DNA of 64,000 bases from assembly GCF_006740045.1 (NCBI RefSeq), contig NZ_AP019749.1:2251001-2315000 (forward strand). Reading direction: 5' to 3'. Positions within the stretch are counted from its first letter, which is position 1. Every line of letters starts with the position of its first letter. Origin of the DNA: Comamonas terrigena NBRC 13299 (GTDB taxonomy: Bacteria > Pseudomonadota > Gammaproteobacteria > Burkholderiales > Burkholderiaceae_C). Under the pieces are notes generated by a model. That model was not told the DNA's origin. It did not search any database and worked only from the letters and a program-made list of their open reading frames with translations. Positions 54,499-64,000 of the stretch are shown here, one piece after another. The position numbers and the translations under genes were made by a program.

Positions 54499-54573
54499 TG
54501 GTGGGTGATACATGGATCGAACATGTGACCCCTGCCGTGTGAAGGCAGTGCTCTACCGCTGAGCTAATCACCC
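54499..54573 (-). tRNA. tRNA-Val (CAC), third in transcript
   Basis: The 75-base cloverleaf includes an encoded CCA. The acceptor is GGGTGAT / ATCACCC, the D-arm TAGCTCAGCGGTAGAGCA, and the anticodon stem CTGCC / GGCAG has loop TTCACAC giving anticodon CAC. The T-loop is TTCGATCC. It is identical to the two copies at 54609 and 54718. Confidence 0.95.
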
Positions 54574-54608
54574 GGTGTGCAGACCCGTACAGGTCTGCAC
54601 TGAAATTG

Positions 54609-54683
54609 TGGTGGGTGATACATGGATCGAACATGTGACCCCTGCCGTGTGAAGGCAGTGCTCTACCGCTGAGCTAATCACCC
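54609..54683 (-). tRNA. tRNA-Val (CAC), second in transcript
   Basis: Identical to the copy at 54499, including CCA. The spacer to the next tRNA forms a hairpin (GTGCAGACC / GGTCTGCAC), a likely processing signal. Confidence 0.95.
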
Positions 54684-54717
54684 GATGTGCAGACCGGACA
54701 GATCTGCACTGAAATTG

Positions 54718-54792
54718 TGGTGGGTGATACATGGATCGAACATGTGACCCCTGCCGTGTGAAGGCAGTGCTCTACCGCTGAGCTAATCACCC
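54718..54792 (-). tRNA. tRNA-Val (CAC), first in transcript
   Basis: Identical to the other two copies, with encoded CCA. The spacer to the second copy also forms a GTGCAGA / TCTGCAC hairpin. Confidence 0.95.
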
Positions 54793-55042
54793 CTTTCGTT
54801 CAGATTTACACAGTATTGTGCTGATCCGGCGAAGCTGAGATTCTAGCATCAAGTGCGCACCACTTTTGGAAAGTGCTCAGCTTTTTGCTAGCACCGCTGC
54901 CAGTCTGCATGTTTGTGCCCCGCGCATACTGCTGCCCGCACGGCGCAAGGAATCCAATGCTCCGGCGCCATGCATGGGGCAAGAGGAGGCGCCCATGGTG
55001 CGCATGCAGCGCACACCGAAAGGCCAAGGCGGCGGCGCCAAC

Positions 55043-55074
55043 AAAAAAGCCTCCTGACCGAAGTCAGGAGGCTT
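55043..55074 (-). terminator. Intrinsic terminator of tRNA-Pro
   Basis: On the minus strand an AAGCCTCCTGAC / GTCAGGAGGCTT stem with loop CGAA-type is followed by six Ts. Confidence 0.9.
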
Positions 55075-55080
55075 ATCGTA

Positions 55081-55157
55081 TGGTCGGAATGGCGGGATTC
55101 GAACTCGCGACCCCTTGCACCCCATGCAAGTGCGCTACCAGGCTGCGCTACATTCCG
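55081..55157 (-). tRNA. tRNA-Pro (GGG)
   Basis: The 77-base cloverleaf has encoded CCA. The acceptor is CGGAATG / CATTCCG, the anticodon stem CTTGC / GCAAG has loop ATGGGGT giving anticodon GGG, and the T-loop is TTCGAATC. It lies directly downstream of the MerR gene of the ihfA-pheST block. Confidence 0.95.
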
Positions 55158-59856: not shown

Positions 59857-59897
59857 AAAAAAACAAGGGCTAGTGCCTTTTCAAGCCCTAGCCCTTG
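59857..59897 (-). terminator. Terminator between rplT and pheS
   Basis: On the minus strand a 10-base perfect stem CAAGGGCTAG / CTAGCCCTTG with a 14-base loop is followed by seven Ts. It sits where E. coli has the pheM attenuator, but I find no phenylalanine-rich leader ORF. It is most simply the end of the infC-rpmI-rplT transcript. Confidence 0.85.
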
Positions 59898-59948
59898 CTG
59901 TTTGTGCATCAGTAGCTACTACGTGAGTAGCAACTACTGACCGTGATC

Positions 59949-60725: not shown

Positions 60726-61337
60726 TCAGGCGGCAGTCTTGCCTGCTTCTTCTGCCGGTGCTGCAGCGGGCTTGGCCACTGGAGCGGGCTTTTTGTTGCG
60801 CGCCGGAGCGATCATCATGATCATCTGGCGGCCTTCCAGCTTGGGGAACTGCTCCACCTGGATGGTGTCGGCCAGATCGTCACGCAGACGGTTCAGCAGA
60901 TCCAGACCCAGTTGCTGGTGCGTGATTTCACGACCGCGGAAACGCAGCGTGATCTTGCACTTGTCGCCCTCGGCCAGGAAGCGGCGGATATTGCGCAACT
61001 TGATGTTGTAGTCGCCATCATCGGTACCAGGACGGAATTTGACTTCCTTGATTTCGATGACGGTTTGCTTCGCCTTGGCCTCGGCCGCGCGCTTTTGCTC
61101 TTGGTACTTGAACTTACCGTAGTCCACCAGGCGGCAGACAGGCGGGTTCGCAGTGGAGGCAATCTCCACCAGATCCACGTCCAAGTCGCCAGCCATGCGC
61201 AGCGCTTCCGCCAGGCTCACAACCCCGATGGGTTCGTTATCAGGACCGGACAGACGCACTTCAGGCGCCTGGATTTCACGGTTGAGACGGTGTTTGCGTT
61301 CCTCGCGGTGGCGACGATCACGAAATTCAGTAGCTAT
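60726..61337 (-). CDS. infC: Translation initiation factor IF-3
   Basis: The 204-residue protein has the IF-3 N-domain ([47 protein letters not shown]) and C-domain ([38 protein letters not shown]), plus an alanine-rich tail. No ATG opens the family-matching start. The mRNA reads AGGGTGA, six bases, then AUA before GCU-ACU-GAA (A-T-E-F-R-D). This suggests an AUA start at 61337, analogous to the AUU start through which E. coli IF-3 limits itself. GTG at 61346 lies inside that ribosome site and is the alternative. Confidence 0.93.
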
Positions 61338-61360
61338 GGCTTTCACCCTAATTTCAAAAC

Positions 61361-61423: not shown

Positions 61424-63343
61424 TCAGGCTTTGGAAGCGATGTCGTTGGCCAACAGTTCAATGAAGGCGTCGACGGACATCACACCCAGGTCCTTATTGC
61501 CCCGGGCGCGCACTGCGACAGTTCCTGCGGCCTTCTCCTTGTCGCCGGCGACAAGGATGTAAGGCAGCTTTTGCAACGAATGCTCGCGTATTTTATACGT
61601 GATCTTTTCATTGCGCAGGTCAGACACAATCTTAAGACTTTGATTCGGCAATGCTTTTTGCAGCTTTGCCACAACGTCTTGCACGTAGTCGGCCTGGGAG
61701 TCGGTGATGTTGAGCACGGCCACTTCCACGGGCGCCAGCCAAACCGGCAGCGCACCGGCGAATTGTTCGATCAAAATGCCGATGAAACGCTCCAGCGAAC
61801 CGACGATTGCACGGTGCAGCATCACGGGGCGGTGACGGTTGCCATCTTCACCCACGTACTCGGCATCCAGACGCACGGGCATGGAGAAGTCCACCTGGAT
61901 GGTGCCGCACTGCCACTGGCGACCCAGGGCATCCTTGAGTGTGTATTCGATCTTGGGGCCGTAGAAGGCGCCGTCGCCCACCGCGATCTGATACTCGCAA
62001 CCCGAAGCCTTGAGCGAGTCGAACAGCGCTTTTTCCGCCTTGTCCCAGACTTCGTCCGAGCCAATCCGCGCTTCCGGACGGGTTGCGACCTTGTAGATGA
62101 TGTCGGTGAAACCGAAGTCGGCGTAGACCTTTTGCAGCAGCTGCGTGAAGTCAAGCACTTCCTTCTGGATCTGGTCTTCGGTACAGAAGATGTGGCCATC
62201 GTCCTGGGTGAAGCCGCGCACGCGCATGATGCCGTGCAGACCGCCCGTGGGTTCGTTGCGGTGGCACTGACCGAATTCACCGTAGCGCAGCGGCAGGTCG
62301 CGGTAGCTCTTGATGCCTTGCTTGAAGATCAGGATATGGCCCGGGCAGTTCATGGGCTTCAGCGCGTAGTCGCGCTTTTCCGACTCCGTGATGAACATGT
62401 TGTCGCGGTACTTGTCCCAGTGACCGGTTTTTTCCCACAGGGTCTTGTCCAGAATCTGGGGGGCCTTCACTTCTTCGTAGCCGTTTTCACGGTAGACGCG
62501 GCGCATGTACTGCTCCACCTCCTGCCACACGCGCCAGCCCTTGGGGTGCCAGAACACGGTGCCGGGCGAGCATTCGTCGATGTGGAACAGGTCCAGCTCG
62601 CGACCCAGGCGACGGTGGTCGCGCTTCTCGGCTTCTTCGATGCGGGTGATGTAGGCCTGCAGATCCTTCTTGTCCGCCCAGGCCGTGCCATACACGCGCT
62701 GCAGCTGCTCGTTCTTGGCGTCGCCGCGCCAGTAGGCGCCAGCCAGCTTGGTCAGCTTGAAGACCTTCAGGAAGCGGGTATTGGGCACGTGGGGGCCACG
62801 GCACATGTCGACATATTCCTGGTGGTAGTACAGGCCCATGGCGGTTTCATTGGGCATGTCTTCGACCAGGCGCAGCTTGTAGTCTTCGCCGCGTTCCTGG
62901 AACACCTTGATGACTTCGGCGCGCGGAGTCATCTTCTTGACGACGTCGTAGTCCTGCGCAATCAGCTCCTTCATGCGAGCTTCGATGGCGGCCATGTCTT
63001 CGGGCGTGAACGGGCGCTCGTAGGAGATGTCGTAGTAAAAGCCCTCCTCGATCACCGGACCGATCACCATCTTGGCCGTGGGATACAGCTGCTTGACGGC
63101 GTGACCGACCAAGTGGGCGGTGGAGTGGCGAATGATCTCCACGCCTTCGTCGTCCTTGGGCGTGATGATCTGCAGCTTGGCGTCTTCGCTGATCAGATCG
63201 CAGGCGTCGACCAGACGGCCGTTGACGCGGCCGGCCACCGTGTTCTTGGCCAGACCGGCGCCGATGGACTGGGCCACCTGCATGACGGTGACCGGGCCGT
63301 CGAATTCACGTTGCGAACCGTCGGGAAGCGTAATTTTCAGCAT
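61424..63343 (-). CDS. thrS: Threonyl-tRNA synthetase
   Basis: The 639-residue protein has a TGS domain (residues 1-61), an editing domain with [11 protein letters not shown], and a class II catalytic core with the zinc cysteine in [10 protein letters not shown] and motif 2 [17 protein letters not shown]. Motif 3 is [22 protein letters not shown]; a C-terminal anticodon domain follows. AAGGA precedes the ATG. The leader upstream encodes a Thr-rich peptide and an intrinsic terminator, so expression appears to be attenuated by charged tRNA-Thr. It heads the infC-rpmI-rplT block. Confidence 0.97.
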
Positions 63344-63394
63344 GGAAATCCTTGGAAACCTAATGTGGGATACGGGGCCGCGGCCAGTGCTTTG

Positions 63395-63427
63395 AAAAGC
63401 AAAAAGCGCGGAACAGGTCCGCGCTTT
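63395..63427 (-). terminator. Attenuator terminator in the thrS leader
   Basis: On the minus strand AAAGCGCGG / CCGCGCTTT with a 7-base loop runs into TTGCTTTT, 52 bases before the thrS ATG. Its position inside the leader, not after a gene, marks it as an attenuator. Confidence 0.8.
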
Positions 63428-63472
63428 GGATAAGAGGGAGAAAAGACTCCGGGCAGGCGCGAACTCGCAGCC

Positions 63473-63517
63473 TCAACGGCTGCACAACCTTTGCAAGGTA
63501 CTCGTTCGCGGTGTCAT
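63473..63517 (-). CDS. thrS leader peptide, threonine-rich
   Basis: A 14-codon ORF starts at ATG 63517 and stops at TGA 63475-63473. It reads MTPRTSTLQRLCSR, with threonine codons ACA, ACG and ACC at positions 2, 5 and 7. AAAGG lies about ten bases upstream, a usable though distant ribosome site. The threonine codons overlap RNA segment 1 of the leader structure. The peptide is expected to act only by ribosome position. Too short for any homology claim. Confidence 0.65.
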   Translation of the reverse strand: MTPRTSTLQRLCSR

Positions 63518-63580
63518 AACCAGACTGCCTTTCTCGCTCTTGTAAATGGATACTGGCAACCATTTTAACGCCGTATGCAC

Positions 63581-63610
63581 AAAAAAGCCCGAAGCAGCAG
63601 CGCTTCGGGC
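63581..63610 (-). terminator. Intrinsic terminator of aceA
   Basis: On the minus strand a GCCCGAAGC / GCTTCGGGC stem with a 6-base loop is followed by six Ts. It separates aceA from the thrS leader, so the thrS promoter must lie between it and about 63530. Confidence 0.9.
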
Positions 63611-63718
63611 CGAAATGGGTGTCCTGGCGACGGTTTTTAGGCTGCCGCACAGGCCCCAGACAACAAGCTTCCGTCCGTTCTACTGTGCCATGTCAGTGGT
63701 CCAGCAGAGCCGTGCAGA

Positions 63719-64000
63719 TCAGTGGAACTGCTCTTCTTCGGTGGAACCGGTCAGGGCCTTCACGCTGGAAGAGCCGCCCTGGATCACGGTGGTCACGTCA
63801 TCGAAGTAACCCGCGCCCACTTCCTGCTGGTGCGACACAAAGGTGTAGCCCAGTTCGCGTGCCGCGAATTCGGGTTCCTGCACCATTTCCACGTAGTGCT
63901 TCATGCCTTCGCCGCGTGCATAGGCGTGGGCAAACTTGAAGGTGTTGTACCAGTTGCTGTGGATGCCGGCCAGGGTGATGAACTGGAACTTGTAGCCCAG
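63719..64000 (-). CDS. aceA: Isocitrate lyase, C-terminal part (runs off the window)
   Basis: The last 93 residues are visible. They include [40 protein letters not shown] and the family-typical ending [16 protein letters not shown]. The enzyme splits isocitrate to succinate and glyoxylate in the glyoxylate shunt. The active-site KKCGH region lies beyond the window edge. A strong terminator follows at 63581. Confidence 0.95.

Follow-up and report, generated by a model that had tools for sequence, protein, structure and literature searches.

Control of an aminoacyl-tRNA synthetase by attenuation is known from pheST of Escherichia coli, which is regulated via its own Phe leader peptide (pheM) by means of alternative hairpins and a terminator. 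ThrRS of E. coli represses the translation of its own gene, thrS, by binding tRNA-like hairpins, and the E. coli leader thrL, with its many Thr and Ile codons, controls thrABC biosynthesis. A putative Thr leader peptide, likewise termed thrL (MKRVRPFLETTPGFVPAR), is placed before thrS of Streptomyces lividans TK24 in excerpts of a published report (PMC8079986). The excerpted main text of Naville and Gautheret 2010 does not name thrS (PMC2965389), and excerpts of Sass 2017 describe 82 short 5' UTRs of Burkholderia cenocepacia arising from attenuation or processing, which include those of two tRNA synthetase genes, BCAL3373 and BCAL3436 (PMC5688073). Among the best-ranked results of a full-text literature search we found no description of a thrS leader peptide in Proteobacteria, and within that scope the original prediction's statement that none is described for this group holds; Lopatovskaya 2010 or Vitreschak 2004 may contain a prediction of this kind.

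We analysed the thrS leader of Comamonas terrigena NBRC 13299 in a window of 64,000 nucleotides (NZ_AP019749.1, positions 2,251,001 to 2,315,000), whose coordinates are used throughout; all features of the locus given below lie on the minus strand. We propose that this leader is very probably a classical ribosome-mediated transcription attenuator of the pheST kind, sensing the charging of Thr-tRNA. The elements of such a device that appear in the sequence itself are an ORF with in-frame selection for threonine, a terminator, mutually exclusive pairings and a place directly before thrS.

The thrS gene (61424..63343), coding for a threonyl-tRNA synthetase of 639 aa, is the first gene downstream of the putative attenuator. 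The leader ORF (63473..63517; ATG at 63517, stop codon at 63475-63473) has 14 codons, encodes MTPRTSTLQRLCSR and carries Thr at codons 2, 5 and 7 (63514-63512, 63505-63503 and 63499-63497), exactly as had been predicted for a 14-codon ORF with three Thr in its first seven codons lying over segment 1. The start codon, codons 2-4 and the first two bases of codon 5 belong to a frozen 17-mer, GTTATGACACCGCGAAC (63504..63520). An intrinsic terminator (the 3:4 pairing; 63395..63427), made up of a stem at 63427-63403 and a T-rich tail, follows, and its T run ends about 52 nt upstream of the thrS start at 63343, in agreement with the distance of 52 bases originally given. The leader ORF is preceded by a Shine-Dalgarno-like GAGAAAGG (63528..63535), of which AAAGG recurs in 105/112 family leaders, 10-11 nt upstream of the ATG in 103 of those 105, and by a -10-like TAAAAT (63562..63567). 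TARAAT recurs within the 75 nt before the leader ATG, at distances of 44-72 nt, in 60/111 family leaders versus 1/111 downstream control stretches, and a simple sigma-70 scan of 63300-63720 found no full -35/-10 promoter. Transcription would thus start near 63555, about 40 nt upstream of the leader ORF; a start downstream of 63427, named beforehand as incompatible with attenuation, is not what this box, lying upstream of the leader, indicates. The ORF that precedes the leader, read as an isocitrate lyase, has its end at 63719 and a terminator-like site of its own after it at 63611-63586, and hence we take the second terminator to be part of the thrS leader. No Rfam family matched the thrS upstream region at gathering scores, and at E<=5 there were two weak matches to unrelated families, both on the upstream terminator.

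Such a combination is rare in the window: at least three Thr in the first seven codons are found in 6 of its 623 short ATG ORFs (8-27 codons; both strands), and the thrS leader ORF alone among these six has a strong terminator within 100 nt. The fold of the leader beats all 200 of its shuffles (z -2.72). Elsewhere in the window, also on the minus strand, infC apparently starts, by eye, at a non-standard ATA after AGGGTG and not at the tool-listed GTG (61320-61350), a row of three tRNA-Val (CAC) genes and one tRNA-Pro (GGG) gene occupies 54499-55157, and putative rplT and pheS are separated by a terminator-like inverted repeat with a T run (59860-59910). A Phe leader before pheS was considered as a comparator and dropped, no Phe-rich leader ORF being visible there by eye.

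We found relatives of thrS in 149/150 genomes of the window's family and examined the upstream DNA in 130 of these 149 genomes, with 19 left out. The 17-mer is exact in 100/130 regions, and allowing up to two mismatches brings the number to 112/130. A MTPRT start, whatever its codons, is encoded in 111/130 regions, all within the motif set, indicating that the motif filter conceals no synonymous versions. All 112 motif-bearing family regions have a terminator before thrS; more broadly, it was found in 126/126 motif-bearing leaders, where it ends 15-109 nt (median 27) before thrS, and 6/336 shuffled stretches equal or exceed the lowest score among these. The leader stop codon lies 65-165 nt (median 95) upstream of the thrS start, with the terminator in between. 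By eye, the 18/130 family regions lacking the motif comprise 12 with a terminator and no leader, four with neither and two that are unscorable (L023, L124). By eye, L062, L070, L071, L087 and eight other leaderless family loci have a similar GC-rich terminator downstream of a TAAAAT- or GAAAAT-like box and ahead of thrS.

The conservation of Thr codons in relatives, which had been put forward as a check, is clear. Between codon 6 and the stop codon, the 113 distinct leaders of the family (the 112 plus L147) have Thr codons at 252/1032 triplets in frame versus 17/1032 and 26/1032 in the other frames. The tails vary in sequence and length (ORFs of 10-27 codons), and their in-frame excess of Thr points to selection for threonine, and hence for translation, of the leader ORF, which we infer to be translated. 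Their Thr codons (ACC 122, ACG 70, ACA 36, ACT 22) resemble in usage those of the window (ACC 53%, ACG 32%, ACA 8%, ACT 7%, in 36 automatically chosen long ORFs). Whereas these later Thr codons drift, codons 1-5 are fixed even at synonymous sites, with CGA standing before ACT or ACG. The family leaders have ACA in 111/113, CCG in 113/113 and CGA in 107/113, with CGG replacing CGA in 6/113; among the Arg codons of the window CGA has a share of 8.5%. At codon 5, ACT stands in 99/112 and ACG in 13/112, and ACC or ACA in none. This fixity of synonymous sites implies selection on nucleotides or codons, beyond that on the peptide alone.

Three alternative pairings can be drawn in the leader RNA. Segment 1, CGCGAAC (63504..63510), provides the outer stem of 1:2, which in the fold of the window takes the form CGCGAAC/GTTCGCG around two hairpins, i.e. 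a three-way junction. Hairpin 1, ACCTT-GCA-AAGGT (63487..63499), is seen in single-sequence folds only, and hairpin 2 (63466..63484), with the stop codon in its loop, is supported by covariation in an alignment, A2, of 32 of the 112 leaders. Segment 2, GTTCGCGC (63457..63464), for which both duplex tests and folds speak, pairs in the window with segment 3, GCGCGGAC (63417..63424); the predicted 2:3 stem with a single G-U thus exists, with eight pairs in place of the seven claimed. Alternatively, segment 3 acts as the 5' arm of the terminator by pairing with segment 4. As segment 3 is common to both, 2:3 and the terminator are mutually exclusive.

The leaders of A2 were picked for TTCGCG in the spacer, and support for the outer 1:2 stem and the 2:3 core in it is therefore circular; likewise, segment 1 is invariant in rows that were selected for its partner. 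Within A2, 3:4 shows 11 double-change cells against 3.2 +/- 1.2 in shuffles (0/500), and hairpin 2 shows 21 across the 32 sequences against 8.2 +/- 2.8 (0/500), the hairpin 2 pairs with any double change being 5 versus 3.7 shuffled (98/500). No covariation of 2:3 was detected inside A2, and the 2:3 core, CGCGG, is nearly invariant across leaders. At the base beside this core, segments 2 and 3 pair in 66/108 leaders (108 of 113, the five without the needed core being excluded) against 45.2 +/- 4.1 in shuffles (0/5000), with kinship not removed. The duplex energy of 2:3 reaches p<=0.05 against dinucleotide shuffles in 35/125 leaders, where about 6 are expected, and the 25 deep-family leaders give a combined p of 8.5e-5, again with kinship not removed. 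The whole of 1:2 does no better than shuffles (p<=0.05 in 9/125 leaders; combined p 0.066 in the deep families), and we rejected it as a single duplex across all leaders. The predicted 1:2 stem is present as CGCGAAC/GTTCGCG in the fold of the window and is not supported as a complete pairing over the 125 leaders. The compensatory changes anticipated at the outset appear in, and thus support, 3:4, the inner 1:2 hairpin within A2 and the flank of 2:3; inside A2 they were not seen for 2:3.

The conserved in-frame Thr codons, the terminator and the pairing at the 2:3 flank together support the reading as ribosome-mediated attenuation that had been offered for this locus. We envisage that RNA polymerase would start about 40 nt upstream of the Thr-rich leader ORF and that, when charged Thr-tRNA is plentiful, the translating ribosome would reach the stop codon and cover segment 2, which overlaps or closely follows that codon, allowing 3:4 to pair and transcription to stop before thrS. 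Conversely, when charged Thr-tRNA is scarce, because either threonine or ThrRS is low, the ribosome would stall on the Thr codons over segment 1, leaving segment 2 free to pair with newly made segment 3; the terminator would be pre-empted, thrS transcribed and charging restored. As stalling would signify low charged Thr-tRNA, a failure of charging would lead to more ThrRS, a response whose direction and size we infer.

We represented the states of the ribosome by folds in which the bases under an assumed footprint were masked, for four leaders (those of the window, L003, L016 and L028). With a stalled ribosome, codon 5 in its A site and segment 3 just made, hairpin 2 and 2:3 form in 4/4 leaders, and placing the ribosome at the stop codon yields the terminator in 4/4. 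In the stalled state at full RNA length the terminator forms again in 4/4 leaders, which implies that antitermination must be kinetic, with 2:3 forming first. In L028 the assumed footprint at the stop leaves segment 2 free until segment 4 is made. Folded without a ribosome, the leader of the window adopts 1:2 and that of L003 adopts 2:3, with L016 and L028 adopting other folds. Given these differences among ribosome-free folds, it may be more important that a ribosome at the stop codon hides segment 2 than that 1:2 is stable.

Several other accounts of this region have to be weighed against attenuation by the leader ORF. ThrRS might bind its own leader RNA through a hairpin resembling tRNA-Thr, as in E. 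coli thrS, with the short ORF being secondary. Besides that precedent, a protein could bind at the three-way junction seen in the leader of the window type or at the terminator hairpin, and a terminator hairpin before thrS is kept in 12/18 leaderless family regions. GT occurs in 42/117 terminator loops versus 31.4 +/- 4.0 in shuffled loops (117 of 126 loops, nine being unparsable); nevertheless, 75/117 lack it, and we discarded an anticodon mimic in the loop as 42/117 is too few. Moreover, the gap from the terminator to thrS, with its median of 27 nt, leaves little space for an operator as large as that of E. coli, and the in-frame Thr codons go unexplained, and we thus regard such binding as unlikely. 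The 12 leaderless regions that retain the terminator also fit a constitutive leader, whose terminator would merely lower thrS transcription and whose ORF would be a decoration or an aid to thrS translation. The in-frame selection for Thr and the distance of 65-165 nt (median 95) from the leader stop to the thrS start, with a terminator between, speak against this notion, which we hold to be distinctly improbable.

Two further accounts would replace the slow ribosome by another sensor. The encoding of MTPRT by 111/112 motif-bearing family leaders could reflect arrest by a nascent peptide that detects free threonine from within the exit tunnel, in the manner of TnaC with tryptophan. However, the invariance extends to synonymous sites, five residues hardly enter the tunnel, and the tail is variable yet Thr-rich, making peptide arrest slightly less probable still than a constitutive leader. 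In many leaders UGGU followed by ACCGCG recalls the sequence of the T-box, in which an RNA would bind uncharged tRNA-Thr directly. UGGU is not conserved, no T-box covariance model matches in the region at E<=5, the stretch from the -10-like box to the ORF offers little space for a specifier stem, and the Thr codons are in frame; hence, we dropped this T-box reading, which has next to no likelihood. Ribosome-mediated attenuation accommodates the in-frame Thr codons directly and is the reading that we prefer.

Within attenuation, a more specific proposal, doubtful as it stands, would explain the frozen codons: the sensor might essentially be a single dicodon, CGA followed by ACT or ACG, to which the Thr-rich tail only adds gain. 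CGA is an inosine-adenine wobble codon, and ACT and ACG are read by wobble; work of Curran from 1995 is said to have indicated that inosine-34 reads CGA and that this slows the next codon. With CGA in the P site and a wobble-read ACT or ACG in the A site, decoding at codon 5 would be unusually slow, and no other step would depend as strongly on Thr-tRNA charging. The attenuator would then amplify kinetically, its tuning set by codon context, and the frozen 17-mer would be the mark of this device. In support of this, 14/126 leaders lack any Thr beyond codon 5, 13 of which nevertheless retain CGA-ACT or CGA-ACG. Against it count the CGG of 6/113 leaders, CTG-ACT in place of CGA in 4/13 leaders of the order set, the lack of CGA at this position in L182 and L209, and its absence from the leaders of a family outside the order (f63; see below). 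The dicodon also leaves unexplained the rest of the 17-mer, which, including the GTT before the ATG, is equally frozen. The freeze of codons 1-5 may partly be due to pairing with segment 2.

Beyond the window's family, an exact scan of public genomes for GTTATGACACCGCGAAC returned at least 119 stretches. Among the 119 matches listed, a ThrS start lies within 500 nt downstream in 115 by script, and by eye L312 is also before thrS; of the remainder, L330 reaches a contig edge, and L268 and L273 are not before thrS. Genera among the matches listed include Comamonas, Acidovorax, Variovorax, Burkholderia, Paraburkholderia, Cupriavidus, Massilia, Janthinobacterium and Undibacterium. An exact ATGACACCGCGAAC was found in 16/150 genomes of the order, 13 of those before thrS by eye, and the 17-mer in 0/271 genomes of the class outside the order. 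In the genome of origin, a three-part pattern comprising the cores of segments 1, 2 and 3 occurs once.

Among 108 order-level thrS upstream regions the motif is present in 14, two of them from the window's family; four of the 108 have no recognisable ThrS start (L184, L193, L213, L237), and L203 is too short. Scoring for a Thr ORF covered regions with both a spacer and a strong terminator, leaving 47 unscored for want of one or the other, and L190 has a Thr-rich ORF by eye yet falls among the regions classed as having no strong terminator. Of the 42 regions scored, 15 have a Thr-rich ORF at p<=0.05 versus shuffles (about 2 expected), the choice of ORF being automatic and doubtful for L221, L224 and L245, and 20 have CGAAC versus 5.7 expected. 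Examples of these deep Thr ORFs are MFRTCTTTWC, MFRTSTTTQS, MQRTSTKTITYLG and MLKTDTTTLMISG, and, at p<=0.25, their Arg-Thr codons are CGA-ACT in 12/21 and CGA-ACG in 5/21. By eye, a tRNA-Val gene followed by a terminator precedes thrS in many deeper order regions (e.g. L228, L238, L254), some of which hold a divergent Thr leader in the gap, and in 22 further order regions a terminator lies within 30 nt of tRNA-Val and no leader fits. It is tempting to suppose that a tRNA-Val terminator could have turned into an attenuator once a leader ORF had arisen in the gap. What counts against a simple history is the scarcity of Thr beyond codon 5 in 13 MTP[R/L]T leaders from the order set (L148 and 12 from outside the family), with 10/93 codons in frame versus 6 and 1 in the other frames.

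In the class outside the order, two of 29 loci have Thr ORFs at p<=0.05: that of L378, which belongs to family f63, is credible, and that of L405 looks derived from a tRNA gene. A leader of the form M-x-Thr-Thr, MSTTTAHR-like, precedes thrS in 24/27 usable loci of f63 (L378, L407-L432), the other three of its 30 loci (L433-L435) having been excluded as matches without a ThrS start. These leaders mostly begin with ATG AGC ACT ACC and are preceded by TGYGAC; 19/24 have a TTTT within 110 nt, before which a short hairpin can be seen by eye. We presume that this family could be the Xanthomonadaceae.

These observations suggest that many Betaproteobacteria, along with one family outside the order, would control an essential synthetase by leader-peptide attenuation. 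The same gene would then be under different control in related groups, the textbook case of E. coli thrS being one of translational autorepression. Moreover, the similar terminators in leader-bearing, leaderless and tRNA-Val arrangements, together with the frozen and the drifting codons, make the origin and tuning of the attenuator testable, and, if the proposal is true, bacteria with the leader would possess a natural reporter of Thr-tRNA charging.

Of the systems with which this locus can be compared, thrL of S. lividans is actinobacterial and, according to the excerpted report, has two Thr codons, a leaderless start, no clear terminator in its authors' view, and no MTPRT (PMC8079986). The Rfam Thr_leader covariance model has no match in our region at E<=5. 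Like E. coli thrABC (thrL), which Thr_leader represents, the present leader places the Thr codons of a leader peptide before a terminator, and, unlike it, would control a synthetase and not biosynthesis. With the E. coli thrS operator it would share feedback control of the same gene, with a leader ORF and a terminator here in place of a translational operator. The arrangement is closest to that of E. coli pheST: a synthetase stands behind a leader rich in its cognate amino acid, with alternative hairpins and a terminator. It differs from pheST in that threonine and thrS are concerned, and in that the start of the leader has been frozen at the nucleotide level across several families of the order.
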